Shown here: positions 52,457 through 60,165 of the stretch, piece after piece
Position numbering within the stretch: position 1 is the stretch's first letter
Layout of the letters: every line of letters starts with the position of its first letter
Notes under the pieces: generated by a model
Databases searched by the model: none
What the model was told of the DNA's origin: nothing
What the model saw: the letters and a program-made list of their open reading frames with translations, nothing else
Position numbers and translations under genes: made by a program
NCBI RefSeq assembly: GCF_900141705.1
Contig: NZ_FQYM01000009.1
Span: 1-64,000, forward strand
Direction of reading: 5' to 3'
DNA from: Fibrobacter sp. UWP2
GTDB taxonomy: Bacteria > Fibrobacterota > Fibrobacteria > Fibrobacterales > Fibrobacteraceae
Length of the DNA stretch: 64,000 nt

Positions 52457-52489
52457 AAAGACTCTGCATTTTCGCAGGGTCTTTTTTTT
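52457..52489 (+). terminator. intrinsic terminator of pgk
   Basis: AAAGACTCTGC, ATTTTC loop, GCAGGGTCTTT then a T-run, about 25 nt after the pgk stop. Confidence 0.88.
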
Positions 52490-52904: not shown

Positions 52905-53462
52905 ATGAAACCGGTTGTTTTTTTATTTGCCCTTTTGACAACGCTCGCCTTTGCGCATGCCGCCGAGGCTGGCGCGGCCATGGTCCCCTTTGTTGTTCCC
53001 GATTCCTCTGCCGAACAGATTACGGTCCCTTTTGCTGCCCAGGCTTCTACAGCTTCGGCGGATTCTATGGTGACCGAACCTGCTGAACCTGCGATGGCGC
53101 CGGATTCGGCGGTGGTTCAACCGGCCGACCCCGACAGCCTCAAGTATTACGAGGTCGAGGCGTTCAAGTACCGCCAGGAACAAAAGCACAAGCACGCGGT
53201 CTCGAAAGTGCTTACCTGGGTCGCCGTGGGTGTGGGCGTTGCGGGAATGGGGACTCTCGCTGCCGGGTTCATGCTCGAGGACGAGGACCAGGGCAAAATT
53301 TGCCGCGGTGTTGGCGGCGGCATTCTTTTGGGTGCCCTTGTGACCATGGGCTTCTCGTTCGGTTTTGACCTCTCTGCCGAGGGCTTAAGGGTCAAGGCGC
53401 ACTATTATGACCAAAAGCTGGCTGACTACAAGCGCCGTCACTCGGCTTTGAATCCAGAATAA
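52905..53462 (+). CDS. exported protein with two hydrophobic segments
   Basis: 185 residues. A signal peptide (VVFLFALLTTLAFAHA) precedes a Pro/Ala/Ser-rich linker to about residue 85. Two glycine-rich hydrophobic segments (VLTWVAVGVGVAGMGTLAAGF, VGGGILLGALVTMGFSFGF) span residues ~105-160, separated by a short acidic loop with Cys. The end is basic. No known domain. It starts 23 nt after the preceding gene and could be cotranscribed with it. Confidence 0.7.
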   Translation: MKPVVFLFALLTTLAFAHAAEAGAAMVPFVVPDSSAEQITVPFAAQASTASADSMVTEPAEPAMAPDSAVVQPADPDSLKYYEVEAFKYRQEQKHKHAVSKVLTWVAVGVGVAGMGTLAAGFMLEDEDQGKICRGVGGGILLGALVTMGFSFGFDLSAEGLRVKAHYYDQKLADYKRRHSALNPE

Positions 53463-53511
53463 CTATCTTTGCCCCAGTGTTTGGATGTGCATGGCTAACA
53501 AAAGGAGACTT

Positions 53512-54747
53512 ATGAAAAGCCGTCTTTGTGCGATTGCCTTATTTGCTGGGGTGAATTTGCTTTTGGGTTGCGGGGAAGATAGCTCCGCGACAAGTTCTAA
53601 CGAAACCGCGCAAACAGGAACCCCAGCCGCCGCCGATACGGCGACGACCCCGGTCGATGTGGACGACCCGCAGCAGGTGCTGCAACCTTGTGATGTGGAA
53701 GGCCAGTTTATTTGGGAAGTGGCGGGCAAATCTTATTTTGAGTGCGAAAACGGCTTTTTTGCCCGCAAAGAGGTGCTCCCGCACACGCCGGGCTTTAACC
53801 CGTGCCAGTTCAACATGGGGGCCGCCTGGCAGGCCGCCCACGAAGAAGAGGAAACCTATGACGGCCTCGACTACATTGCAGTGTGGCTCGGCGACAATGA
53901 CTGGTACAATGAGTTTGAAAAGCGCATGGTCGAGATGTGCGTGAAGGTGCATGCAACGCCCATGATTTACGCCTACGTGATTGCGGAGTTTGGCAAGGAC
54001 AATGGTCTTGTGGACTGCGACATGATTGACGAGGAACACCCGAACAGCCTTTGCACCCACGGGGCGAACATCATCCGCGAGTTCTTCTTTGATTCCATTT
54101 TGACGCGTTATGCGACGTACGCCTCCGGTATGAGGGAACAACTGTCGGTTTTCCTGGACCAGAATCCCGATACCTACGAGACGATTTGGCTTATTGAGCC
54201 GGACTTTTACCAGTATTCCGAGACGGGGTCCAGGCAGCGCTCGCTTGCCGACTCCGGCAAGGCGCAGATTGGCGGTGGCATCCCCGATGCCGAGATGGGG
54301 CTTTACTTTGCGCAGATCGTGGGGACGATCAAGCAGTACTTGCCTGCCGCCAAGATTGCCATCGACATTTCGCCCTGGATTTCGGACTGGCCCGAAACGA
54401 GCCAGTCCGCTTGGTACTCCAACTTTGACATGAGCCTTGTGGACTACGCCAGCACCTCGGGCGGCGGGACCGCGGCGAACAATGCGAAAATTCGTGCGGG
54501 CAACAAGGCTACCTGGCAAGAGATTTATGCGGTCACGGGCAAGCCAATCCTTGCCGACGCCGGCTACGACAAGGGCGGTCAGGGCACCGGTCACTCCAAG
54601 ATTTGGGACATGGTGGCGAACTTGAATGCCCGCATTGCCGATAACGTAGTTGGCGTGATGCAGATGGACGCCTCGCTCGACTACCCGGCGGTTGCCGATA
54701 CCATCAGACCGCAACTCAAAGTGAACTACCCGTGGTGCGTGCAATAA
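53512..54747 (+). CDS. lipoprotein with TIM-barrel glycosidase-like domain
   Basis: 411 residues from ATG 53512 (AAGGAG upstream); the upstream ATG at 53485 adds a non-signal segment. Lipobox LLLGC, Thr/Ala-rich linker, then a short Cys-rich segment (residues ~50-70) and a predicted beta/alpha barrel with strands ending in acidic or aromatic residues: YIAVWLGDNDWY, TPMIYAYVIAEFGKD, TIWLIEPDFYQYSETG, KIAIDISPWISDW, KPILADAGYDKGGQ, and VVGVMQMDASLDYPA. Glu/Asp placement, with EPD in the middle, looks like a glycoside hydrolase active site but I cannot name a family. Surface-anchored polysaccharide processing is plausible. It stands alone before hisH. Confidence 0.72.
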   Translation: MKSRLCAIALFAGVNLLLGCGEDSSATSSNETAQTGTPAAADTATTPVDVDDPQQVLQPCDVEGQFIWEVAGKSYFECENGFFARKEVLPHTPGFNPCQFNMGAAWQAAHEEEETYDGLDYIAVWLGDNDWYNEFEKRMVEMCVKVHATPMIYAYVIAEFGKDNGLVDCDMIDEEHPNSLCTHGANIIREFFFDSILTRYATYASGMREQLSVFLDQNPDTYETIWLIEPDFYQYSETGSRQRSLADSGKAQIGGGIPDAEMGLYFAQIVGTIKQYLPAAKIAIDISPWISDWPETSQSAWYSNFDMSLVDYASTSGGGTAANNAKIRAGNKATWQEIYAVTGKPILADAGYDKGGQGTGHSKIWDMVANLNARIADNVVGVMQMDASLDYPAVADTIRPQLKVNYPWCVQ

Positions 54748-55500: not shown

Positions 55501-56373
55501 ATGAAACTCAAAAAAGTTCTCATGGCTTGTGCTGCCGCTTGTGCTTTTGCCGCTCCTGCTATGGCAGAAGGAGGCATGTTCGAGGGCGCTCTTCCCGAAA
55601 ACTGGACTGCCGACGTGGTTGCCGCTGTCAAGTACAACTACTACAACTTCCACAACTGGCAGCAAGACGGTACGTCGAACTCCATGTGGCTCGTGACCTA
55701 CCATGCCGACGTTCAGGGCAAGTGGAAAATCGCCAACTGGCGTAACCTCGTCGACATCGAGCTCGGTCAAACGTGGACCGAGGGCTTTGGCACCCGCAAG
55801 TCCGCCGACAAGCTCTTCTGGGAGTCCATGCTCGACTTCAACATGACCGAACAGGTCAAACCCTACATTGGCAACCGCTTTGAAACCCAGATAATGAAGG
55901 GTTACGCTTATAGCGAAGACGAAAACGGCGACGAAGTCAAGACGGCTATTTCTAGCTTTATGGATCCGGCTTACGAAACGCAGGTTGCCGGTATCGCCTA
56001 CATCCCGAACGACAACTTCTCCCAGCGTATCGGTTTTGCAAACCGTATGACCATTTCTAATGGCTACGGCTTTGCCGACGACCCGGATACCGAGAAGTTC
56101 GAAAAGTTCAAGGACGAACCGGGTTTGGAATCCATCACCGAAGTCAAGTACGCATTCTCTGACGTTGTCAACTTCCACAGCCGCTTGTGGGCGTTTGTGA
56201 ATTTCGAAGGTACCGACGAAATCGACGGCAAGTGGGAGAACCTCCTCTCGGTGCAGCTGATGCCCTTCATTGAGCTCCAGGTTGGCTTCGACATGGCCTA
56301 CGACAAGGATTTGGACGAGGATGCCCAGTACAAGAACATGGTGCTCTTTGGTCTGACCTGGCGCTGGTTCTAA
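55501..56373 (+). CDS. DUF3078-like outer-membrane protein
   Basis: 290 residues. Signal peptide (MKLKKVLMACAAACAFAAPAMA), then a beta-rich mature part. NFHNWQQDGTSNSMWLV near the start matches the N-W-x-x-G-x-x-N-S feature of the DUF3078 family, and the protein ends in MVLFGLTWRWF, an aromatic-terminal insertion signal. Family members occur in Bacteroidetes and relatives and are of unknown role. Codon use is biased towards high-expression codons. A 96-bp tandem repeat begins 5 nt after the stop. Confidence 0.8.
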   Translation: MKLKKVLMACAAACAFAAPAMAEGGMFEGALPENWTADVVAAVKYNYYNFHNWQQDGTSNSMWLVTYHADVQGKWKIANWRNLVDIELGQTWTEGFGTRKSADKLFWESMLDFNMTEQVKPYIGNRFETQIMKGYAYSEDENGDEVKTAISSFMDPAYETQVAGIAYIPNDNFSQRIGFANRMTISNGYGFADDPDTEKFEKFKDEPGLESITEVKYAFSDVVNFHSRLWAFVNFEGTDEIDGKWENLLSVQLMPFIELQVGFDMAYDKDLDEDAQYKNMVLFGLTWRWF

Positions 56374-57429: not shown

Positions 57430-57444
57430 TGGAGATTGGATTAT

Positions 57445-60165
57445 ATGAAAATCGAAAAGACTCTATTGATGGCCGGATTGGCTTTCGGTGTAACGAATGT
57501 TTTTGCTAAGTCCACTGTGGATTGTACAAGTCCGCAAGACAAGGGAAAACAGTGTGCCGAACTGGACATCGTGGTCCGCGACTTCCAGGTGATTCACCCT
57601 GACTTTGAAAACTTTTACGAAGAAGCTTCGGTAAACCTCAACGCTTCTTGGACGTCGCCGGGCTATAGGGACGACACAACCTGGATGCAGAAGCGTGCCG
57701 ACGCCGCATGGGGCTGCGCCAACGCCGACCCCGGTAATGGTCGCGACAACTCCGCTTTGGGTATTTACATTGGTACGGACGCTTACCCGATTGCCATGAA
57801 CCCGGGTATCCCGTCGCAGTTGCCCACTTACCTGCAGACCAAGCTTTCTGCGACCGGCCAAAAGGCCTTTTATGGTGAGTTCGACTGCGGGGGCAAAAAG
57901 CAGAGAGGCTACGAACACGAAATGACCTCTTGCAGCAAGGACTGGTCGAAGCCGGTGCTCGTGACCCCGGGCATGGTCAACCAGTACTTGACTTTTAAAC
58001 CCGAACTTGGCGACGACATGATGTACGAGCCGGTCATTAGCCGTGCCCGTATGGCGTGCGACAACCAGTACTTTGACCAGTGGTACGCCGACTACGATGC
58101 CGCGGGCAACAGCCTCCAGCAGTCCAACATCAATACGCGTATGAACACGGTTCTCCAGTTGCCGTTGGTCGCTGGCACCAAGAACACCTTTGAAATCGAC
58201 TACAACTGGAACAACGGTGGTTACTTCCCGCTCGATGTCGTCGATGCCAACAACAACTGGGTGGCCCAGTTTACCGGCGGCCAGTGCGCCTTTAGCACCC
58301 CCTGCCAGTTCGGTCCGCAGTCCCTCTCCATTTTCTGCCCGCCGTATCAGTACCTGTGGGCGGGCTCTCAAAAAGACTACATGGGTACCTCCACGGCTCA
58401 GCTGTGCTCCGATTGGAAGGCCAATGGCGGTCCTAAGACCCCGATGGCAGCCTCTATTGCTGCGGGTGCAAACGGAACTGTTGGTTCCCGCCATCTCCGC
58501 AACTACAACTTCACCATGATGGGCTATGCCAAGTTCAAGTACAACAAGGGCGGCAAGGAAGTCTTTGAATTTACCGGTGACGACGACATGTGGATCTTTG
58601 TGGACGGCGTCCTTGTGGTGGACCTGGGTGGTACGCACTTGGCTGCTTCGGGTAAGGCCGACATGGACTACCTTTCGTCTTGGTCCCACGGATGCCTGCC
58701 GGGTCAGCCTCTTGCCGACCAGACGGGTGAAAACCAGAACTGCGACCGTGACCCCGCCGATGGCCAGTGGAAGAACGGCTCTTGGCACCATTTGCACTTC
58801 TTCTACGCAGACCGCCAGACCGATGGTTCTAACATGAAGATTCACTCGACGCTTTCGGAGCTTGCCAAGTCCCGTTATGGCCAGCCGGCTGTGGGCGAAG
58901 CCGTGGTGAAGGTGGATGATGACGGTAAGGTGACGAACAGCATATTCTTGAACACTACCTTGAATCCTACAACTGTTGAAGCGCTCCGTAATTCTGCTGC
59001 TACTCAAACTCCTGCGATGGTCATTGTCCGCGAAGTGACTGACCCCAACACGGGCAAAAAAACTCAAGTGGTCTATGGCTATATTCCCTCGACCTTTAGC
59101 GATGGTGTCGACAAGGGTGCCGATGGTGTTCTTTACCAGTTCGATGGCCAGCTGGTCGCCATGAATGCCGACGGCTCCTACACCCCAGTGGATGGCGGTT
59201 TGTTGGGCGGTGACTTGATTGCCTTTAACGTGGCTGGTACCACCGAAGGCCTGGATGAGTCCAACGATGACGGCGCCATTCCGACTGAAGTCTGGAATCA
59301 GTTGATGGCTTGGAGTAGCAAGATGACTTACAACGTCACTTCTTCGACCGGTAAAGCTGTGGAAGGCTTCGACCCGCTCGAAGACTGGGCTAGCATTGAG
59401 TATACGGCTGTTGCCGTTGTGGAACTTATTCCCGATGGTCCGGGCATTTCCCGTCCCGATTTCTCAGAACAGTCTGAAAAGTTGACGAATGCTGCTGGCA
59501 GTGACGGCCTTAAGGAAGACCAGACTGCTGACTTGGTCCTGGTCTCGATTCCGGCAGTTCCTGGTCAGAACCCGTTGACCTGGGCTGTGGACAATGCCGA
59601 TGAAATGATGAAGTCCGGTCAGAACGGTGGCTTGCCGACGTCGGTCAAGACGAAGGCTGGTGAAGTTCCTGTGACAGCAAGCAATGTGGCTGGTTTGAAC
59701 GCTGGCTCGGGGACTACATTGTGCTACAACGACGGTGCCGGCAAGAAGGGCAGCGCCAGCAGCGAAAGCTGCACGAGCTTCTCCTTTGCTACGTCTCAGC
59801 CGTTCCGCGTGAATATCCGCGTGTTCGACCATTTGGGCAATTTCGTGAACCAGTTCAACAAGTCTGTGACCGACGAAGACTTCTCAAAGGCTTTGGGAAC
59901 GGGTGTTAAGGTTGCTGGTTGCGATGATGCTCACCCGCTTTATGGTGGTACGGGCGCCATGCTTGCCAACATCAAGGTGTACCCTGTTTCCCAGGATGGC
60001 CGCCAGTTGGCAACTGGTCCGTACATTTACCAGGTCACTGTCGTGATGGAAAAGTACGAGTACTGCTACATGGCTAAAGGCACCTCTCCGACCATCATGA
60101 ACATGCCGTTCATGCGTTCGACCGAGACTTATCGCCGCGGTTACCGTCGCGCCAAGGCAAAGTAA
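57445..60165 (+). CDS. fibro-slime domain secreted protein
   Basis: 906 residues from ATG 57445, with GGAG 10 nt upstream; a TTG nine bases earlier touches that site and is rejected. Signal peptide ends near TNVFA (residue 21). The fibro-slime domain (PA14-like) covers residues ~60-480, with YAKFKYNKGGKEVFEFTG then DDDMWIFVDGVLVVDLGGTH as the hallmark calcium-type loop and HHLHFFYADRQTDGSN. The C-terminal 130 residues form an FlgD/Ig-like module (NIRVFDHLGNFVNQFN ... LATGPYIYQVTV) that ends RRGYRRAKAK, related to the ends of the two GH9 proteins. Fibro-slime proteins of Fibrobacter are surface proteins linked to adhesion to cellulose. Its expression looks high by codon use. Confidence 0.93.
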   Translation: MKIEKTLLMAGLAFGVTNVFAKSTVDCTSPQDKGKQCAELDIVVRDFQVIHPDFENFYEEASVNLNASWTSPGYRDDTTWMQKRADAAWGCANADPGNGRDNSALGIYIGTDAYPIAMNPGIPSQLPTYLQTKLSATGQKAFYGEFDCGGKKQRGYEHEMTSCSKDWSKPVLVTPGMVNQYLTFKPELGDDMMYEPVISRARMACDNQYFDQWYADYDAAGNSLQQSNINTRMNTVLQLPLVAGTKNTFEIDYNWNNGGYFPLDVVDANNNWVAQFTGGQCAFSTPCQFGPQSLSIFCPPYQYLWAGSQKDYMGTSTAQLCSDWKANGGPKTPMAASIAAGANGTVGSRHLRNYNFTMMGYAKFKYNKGGKEVFEFTGDDDMWIFVDGVLVVDLGGTHLAASGKADMDYLSSWSHGCLPGQPLADQTGENQNCDRDPADGQWKNGSWHHLHFFYADRQTDGSNMKIHSTLSELAKSRYGQPAVGEAVVKVDDDGKVTNSIFLNTTLNPTTVEALRNSAATQTPAMVIVREVTDPNTGKKTQVVYGYIPSTFSDGVDKGADGVLYQFDGQLVAMNADGSYTPVDGGLLGGDLIAFNVAGTTEGLDESNDDGAIPTEVWNQLMAWSSKMTYNVTSSTGKAVEGFDPLEDWASIEYTAVAVVELIPDGPGISRPDFSEQSEKLTNAAGSDGLKEDQTADLVLVSIPAVPGQNPLTWAVDNADEMMKSGQNGGLPTSVKTKAGEVPVTASNVAGLNAGSGTTLCYNDGAGKKGSASSESCTSFSFATSQPFRVNIRVFDHLGNFVNQFNKSVTDEDFSKALGTGVKVAGCDDAHPLYGGTGAMLANIKVYPVSQDGRQLATGPYIYQVTVVMEKYEYCYMAKGTSPTIMNMPFMRSTETYRRGYRRAKAK

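Follow-up and report, generated by a model that had tools for sequence, protein, structure and literature searches.

A Fibrobacter barrel lipoprotein of a probably undescribed family with apparent remote kinship to GH6 cellulases

The protein encoded at 53512–54747 (+) of the window, by which we mean the whole 64,000-nucleotide stretch of Fibrobacter sp. UWP2 contig NZ_FQYM01000009.1 analysed here, is best explained as a glycoside hydrolase that is exported and anchored in the outer membrane; it would belong to an undescribed family of common ancestry with the GH6 cellulases and act on beta-1,4-glucan as an inverting enzyme, a reading to which we assign a probability of about 0.6. A lipobox signal, a barrel fold, conserved carboxylates at strands 4, 5 and 7 together with a DC segment after strand 3, and a remote similarity to GH6 were all computed directly.

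Gene, protein layout and predicted fold

The span marked by the original prediction coincides exactly with the coding sequence including its stop: the open reading frame, whose call is supported by relatives, runs from the ATG at 53512 to the stop codon at 54745–54747 and specifies 411 residues. A Shine-Dalgarno-like AGGAG (53503–53507, +) sits four bases upstream of this ATG and thereby makes a start at the second in-frame ATG further upstream, at 53485, less likely. With its open reading frame, its AGGAG, its lipobox and its relatives across the phylum, the gene is real, and the overlapping antisense open reading frame of 401 codons (53539–54744, −) is taken as its shadow.

The sequence of residues 1–20 (53512–53571, +) constitutes a lipoprotein signal peptide with the lipobox LLLGC and the modifiable position at Cys20, bearing out the earlier description of the product as a lipoprotein; in alignment A1, every one of the 11 lipoprotein-type rows has the lipobox Cys. 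A variable linker and a small two-Cys segment follow (residues 21–85, 53572–53766, +; delimited from the sequence and A1). Residues 58–85 (53683–53766, +) contain two Cys, one Trp and one Tyr, vary in their presence among close relatives and may be a separate mini-module of the lipoprotein-type members. The remainder of the protein, residues 86–411 (53767–54744, +), is modelled by AlphaFold2 as an eight-stranded (beta/alpha)8 barrel.

The AlphaFold2 model, computed from 19 sequences, has a pLDDT of 89.7 and a pTM of 0.91 and shows eight strands alternating with helices, and a second model, that of the relative L048 from a Polyangiaceae metagenome-assembled genome, again shows eight strands (pLDDT 82.2). 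The TIM barrel proposed earlier from the letters is therefore present in both models, and the motifs that had been quoted for an alternating strand-helix pattern do lie at strand ends, WLIEPDFYQY at strand 4, IAIDISPW at strand 5 and ILADAGYDKGG at strand 7. The Foldseek matches listed for the two models are mostly TIM-barrel glycoside hydrolases with a few others, for example xenobiotic reductases, and the VIA-align matches listed for both are glycosidases; the fold search suggested by the original prediction thus returned a barrel and no confident match to a non-enzymatic family. VIA-align Z scores of 14.7–16.3 (rmsd 3.4–4.5 over 226–266 residues) are tied over GH35, GH26, GH53, GH5 and GH164, so the fold indicates a glycosidase-like barrel and does not choose its family.

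GH6 enters the fold comparison through the relative. Among the 50 Foldseek matches listed for the L048 model, six represent T. fusca Cel6A, either as the enzyme itself or as an engineered scaffold derived from it; these six have E-values of 1.5e-5 to 1.5e-4 and identities of 14–18%, compared with 7–17% for the other listed matches, and their TMq is 0.40–0.43 versus 0.48–0.59 for GH26. No GH6 chain is found among the 50 Foldseek matches listed for the window protein's own model or among its listed VIA-align matches, nor among the VIA-align matches listed for the L048 model.

Sequence searches assign the domain to no catalogued family. The window protein has no match in Pfam, NCBIfam yields nothing for the domain and one chance-level match to the signal region, and single-sequence and profile searches of PDB sequences give no credible match, in keeping with the earlier statement that the barrel was not assignable. 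Viral contigs, considered as a source of relatives, gave 42 pattern matches, none of them a relative. PF01341, the Pfam family of GH6, was searched in the window protein and five distant relatives and gave no match with an E-value of 10 or less, a search in which the HMMER filters drop most weak matches. A literature search, in scope mostly titles and abstract openings, returned no description that we recognised as this barrel family. As judged from Pfam, NCBIfam and PDB sequences, the barrel domain most likely constitutes an undescribed family, although it may coincide with a family already listed in CAZy.

Profile similarity to GH6 and the candidate active site

The original prediction spoke of a glycosidase that could not be placed; this holds for Pfam, NCBIfam and the PDB, yet profile comparison gives the family a remote place next to GH6. 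GH6 enzymes carry, in order, W-x-GD, DC, EPD, D-x-x-x-W and an Asp before a Gly-rich turn, and the profile comparison was undertaken because the motif order in the family alignment matched this one. The family was represented by 57 domains including that of the window protein, obtained from 77 by removing those of fewer than 230 model positions and merging identical ones, a set without the fragments and unfetched matches of the family and phylum searches. A maximum-likelihood tree of these domains places the window protein in a 24-row clade (support 100/99), all from its own family in taxonomy and all short open frames of 379–538 residues (the lipoprotein clade); domain identity is 58–78% to the 23 other rows of the clade and 23–48% to the 33 wider relatives. 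The GH6 set comprised 16 proteins, six scoring over the PF01341 cut-off in the phylum that holds L048 and ten encoded on plasmids of Streptomyces, Kineococcus and other bacteria; the plasmid genes were found through similarity to one PF01341 protein, represent 10 of 13 such matches (H7, H8 and H10 omitted) and are annotated as GH6 in six cases. Decoys came from the window's relatives as a chosen part of the available loci, namely 15 of 20 for GH26, 12 of 20 for GH10, 10 of 11 for GH53 and 12 of 25 for GH5.

Aligned by hhalign with the first six GH6 proteins, the 57 domains gave a probability of 76, and with all 16 a probability of 83.6 and a score of 48.7. The latter alignment spans 184 columns and is collinear between strands 2 and 7; it brings W-x-GD, the DC segment, EPD, D..SxW and the strand-7 Asp into register. 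The decoy probabilities were 1.15 (GH53), 0.29 (GH26), 0.18 (GH5) and 0.17 (GH10). Compared with the real score of 48.7, 299 column shuffles averaged 14.9 (sd 2.7) and reached at most 28.9, and 55 reversed and rotated versions reached at most 17.0; the hhalign E-values are those of a single pair and not database-wide. Probabilities were 88.7 for seven Myxococcota-side domains, 86.0 for 28 domains outside the set of the window's family and 86.5 for the 33 domains without the lipoprotein clade. The 24-row lipoprotein clade alone reached only 0.49 against GH6, and the smaller alignments A3 (19 rows) and A4 (six rows) only 3.5 with the register unchanged, indicating that the link between GH6 and the window protein runs via its more diverse relatives. 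HMM-to-sequence searches discriminate GH6 poorly: the GH6 HMM scores family members at up to 10.8 bits (over 5 bits on ten), the GH53 HMM at up to 8.3 bits (over 5 bits on four), and in the reverse direction the family HMM scores a GH5 protein highest, at 7.6 bits. At the level of profiles, the family looks distantly related to the GH6 cellulases.

The query residue is kept in at least 95% of the 57 sequences at 25 of the 326 domain positions, and 11 of these 25 fall within the 64 strand C-end positions (hypergeometric P 0.003, with windows chosen by the analysts). D168-C169 (54013–54018, +) aligns with the GH6 RDC segment, the site of the proposed base (Asp79 in T. fusca Cel6A, Asp175 in T. 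reesei). D168 is present in 56 of 57 rows and C169 in 51, and the family differs from GH6 in having extra residues ahead of DC and in not keeping the preceding PxR. C169 and C181 are missing together from exactly the same six of 57 rows, suggesting a disulphide between them, a further difference from GH6. At the end of strand 4, E229-P230-D231 (54196–54204, +) is in register with GH6 EPD by hhalign, also in the A3/A4 comparison, and D231, kept in 55 of 57 rows, is on this alignment a candidate general acid, the counterpart of Asp117 in T. fusca Cel6A. The original prediction had singled out the Glu of this motif as the residue to mutate; if the kinship with GH6 is right, the likely acid is the Asp, D231, and not E229.

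Strand 5 ends in D285-x-S-x-W289 (54364–54378, +), aligned with GH6 DAGHSxW, with D285 in all 57 rows and W289 in 55; the GH of GH6 DAGHxxW is replaced by SP, so that the family reads SPW where GH6 has GHS. Strand 6 ends in T315-S-G-G318 (54454–54465, +), with G317 invariant (57/57). At the end of strand 7, D349-x-G-Y-x-x-G-x (54556–54579, +) aligns with GH6 DTSRNGxG, the family having GYxxGG in place of TSRNG. D349 is found in 55 of 57 rows as aligned, and one of the two exceptions, L105, is probably a register shift.

The GH6 residues were numbered by a phmmer alignment of the GH6 locus L107 with 1TML, in which D162, D200 and D239 correspond to T. fusca Asp79, Asp117 and Asp156 as counted by hand. 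Asp156 and Asp265 of T. fusca Cel6A matter as well, and the last residue of the C-terminal GH6 motif KxxGExD aligns with Asp265. Under one and the same strict pattern, this motif occurs in none of the 57 family domains and in 10 of the 16 GH6 rows. According to PMC5968413, T. fusca Cel6A uses Asp117 as its acid, with Asp79 as the proposed base; for T. reesei GH6, PMC6091422 names D221 as the acid equivalent and D175 as the base equivalent acting via a bridging water.

Compared with GH6 (PF01341; T. fusca Cel6A/1TML, mgCel6A/6FAO and T. reesei Cel6A), the family thus shows the same hhalign motif order, with its motifs at modelled strands 2, 3, 4, 5 and 7, whereas its eight strands, a count predicted in two models, contrast with the seven of the GH6 barrel (PMC5968413). 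We do not file the family as GH6 because it has neither a PF01341 match nor KxxGExD, and the eight modelled strands bear on a third criterion; it probably works like GH6.

We infer enzymatic activity, its stereochemistry, the substrate and surface exposure. The lipoprotein would sit at the cell surface, anchored in the outer membrane, and would hydrolyse a beta-1,4-linked glucan, either cellulose or a similar beta-glucan, in one inverting step. The general acid would be D231 of EPD; D168 of the DC segment would accept the proton of the attacking water through a chain of waters, the route proposed for GH6, and D285, D349, Y155, Y235 and W289 would bind the sugar where it is cleaved. A bolder version, in which the family founds a clan together with GH6, combining a complete eight-stranded barrel with GH6 inverting machinery, and represents a hidden cellulase type in Fibrobacteraceae, is put forward only tentatively; under it, some members could even be processive, provided that the cleft is roofed by the long loops that follow strands 3 and 4. 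If the family is indeed GH6-like, GH6 would gain a full-barrel relative that shows which residues of its debated base mechanism are common.

The same barrel could in principle belong to a divergent retaining glycosidase of clan GH-A (GH26, GH53, GH5 or GH35 type), with E229 as acid/base, D349 as nucleophile and the GH6 likeness as convergence. Clan GH-A enzymes have their catalytic Glu residues at strands 4 and 7, the former usually in Asn-Glu. The family shares with GH26, GH53, GH5, GH35 and GH164 the eight-stranded barrel, carboxylates where strands 4 and 7 end, including the Glu at strand 4, and the top geometric scores, chains of these families being among those in the VIA-align range; GH53 is moreover the top-scoring decoy. 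However, strand 7 carries Asp rather than Glu (55/57 rows), strand 4 of the window protein ends in Ile-Glu-Pro-Asp with no NE motif, geometry ranks many families about equally, and the profile comparison, which covered GH5, GH10, GH26 and GH53, does not exceed 1.8% and shows no similarity to these four. We regard this explanation as unlikely. We did not adopt clan GH-A on the strength of fold scores, because Z is tied over five families and strand 7 carries the wrong residue.

Loss of activity is another matter that the conserved residues address. The protein might be a barrel that has retained its substrate cleft but no longer hydrolyses, serving at the surface as a lipoprotein that binds polysaccharide, and such a role would suit a lipoprotein without a CBM match or carbohydrate-active neighbours among the genes scanned. 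Elsewhere in the wider family the putative catalytic residues have indeed been lost: two proteins of a single genome, L098 and L100, have DRN for EPD. The window protein itself, however, retains all putative catalytic residues, D231 is kept in 55 of 57 domains, and the strongly conserved positions are enriched at strand C-ends, so that a purely binding role strikes us as quite improbable, and the inverting hydrolase related to GH6 remains our preferred reading.

L098 (532–2508, −) and L100 (426–2450, −) are paralogues on one contig of the Fibrobacterota genome G168; L100 also has E at the D168 position. Judged from these substitutions, the two are possibly inactive, glycan-binding versions.

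Relatives, distribution and fibre digestion

A six-frame search locates the domain in 40 of the 111 genomes that represent the window's family (18 of the 56 most complete) and does not find it in the other 71; it occurs in 57 of 167 genomes of the window's phylum and in 6 of 377 genomes of the phylum that holds L048. A scan of named genomes gave 18 loci, 16 from Fibrobacter/Fibrobacteraceae, one from Polyangiaceae and one from Fibrobacteres.

PF01341 detects GH6 in the phylum of genome G167 (5 of 140 genomes). In all 111 genomes of the window's family it is silent, a silence shared by the 14 control genomes and consistent with PMC6291624, which states that GH6, GH7 and GH48 exocellulases are lacking in F. 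succinogenes and in the Fibrobacter genomes that it covers. Cellulose digestion without such exocellulases in this group has been called distinctive. Fibrobacter is described as fundamentally important for fibre digestion in herbivore hosts (PMC6291624). If our preferred reading is true, a GH6-like family missed by standard profiles would be a testable candidate for part of this exocellulase gap in 40 of the 111 genomes; it cannot explain cellulose digestion in the 71 relatives in which it was not found.

Beyond the lipoprotein clade, a second clade of nine rows from the same taxonomic family has the domain near the front of proteins of 627–2084 residues, unless a contig end cuts the frame. 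Uncharacterised modular Fibrobacterota proteins, with the domain near the N-terminus of open frames of up to 2084 residues, carry the same domain at about 31–48% identity; those inspected have no lipobox, and some add repeat domains, CBMs or a C-terminal sorting domain. Pfam scans of 14 relatives give five with a CBM above cut-off, namely CBM_4_9 in L079, L083 and L087, CBM_6 in L082 and CBM_2 in L105, and CBM_4_9 falls below the cut-off in two more, L095 and L084. In L079, a T9SS sorting domain additionally scores above the NCBIfam cut-off, and the carriage of CBM2 by some relatives resembles mgCel6A of GH6. These CBMs join the listed fold matches in upholding the glycosidase-like character first read from the sequence. 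The window protein itself has no CBM match and no sorting domain in Pfam and NCBIfam.

In three loci, L077 (577–6828, −), L092 (847–5985, −) and L093 (1180–5730, −), the barrel lies near the front of frames of 1517–2084 residues with long Ser-rich linkers and repeated segments. The similar protein L076 has no Pfam match.

Genomic neighbourhood and substrate

Pfam detects no carbohydrate-active family in the seven neighbouring genes scanned, which encode phosphoglycerate kinase, a 128-residue protein (C_GCAxxG_C_C below cut-off), a 185-residue protein, a class-I glutamine amidotransferase, which we take to be HisH-like, a DUF3078 protein, a 205-residue protein and a fibro-slime/PA14 protein. 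Across the lipoprotein-type loci, the HisH-like gene lies directly downstream in 11 of 15, and the phosphoglycerate kinase gene lies upstream in 5 of 15, several others being cut by a contig end. These counts point to a conserved chromosomal place, unlike that of a polysaccharide-utilisation locus.

The neighbourhood bears on what the enzyme would cut. A GH6-related hydrolase might act on another substrate; mixed-linkage glucan, glucomannan, xyloglucan and glycans of bacterial cell surfaces are examples. This view overlaps with our preferred one except in the substrate. The place outside a polysaccharide-utilisation locus, next to the HisH-like gene, would fit a housekeeping role, KxxGExD of GH6 is not found in any of the 57 domains, and a GH6 enzyme with glucomannanase side activity is on record (PMC5968413). 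Conversely, relatives carry CBM_2, CBM_6 and CBM_4_9, and a nearby HisH-like gene says little on substrate. We consider a different substrate possible, though on balance doubtful, and retain beta-1,4-glucan as the preferred substrate.

The phosphoglycerate kinase gene is followed by a hairpin that resembles a terminator, with 11 pairs and a T run (52457–52484, +). Between 53462 and 54785 no + strand terminator-like hairpin is listed, which would allow cotranscription of the gene with its neighbours.

The 185-residue protein directly upstream (52905–53462, +) shows hydrophobic stretches by eye, has no Pfam or NCBIfam match and occurs upstream in 4 of the 18 named loci. A 290-residue protein (55501–56373, +) has DUF3078 and DUF481 matches over cut-off and is probably an outer-membrane barrel. 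The fibro-slime protein, of 909 residues (57436–60165, +), matches TIGR02148 and PA14, both over cut-off; fibro-slime is a Fibrobacter protein type said to bind cellulose (PMC6291624).
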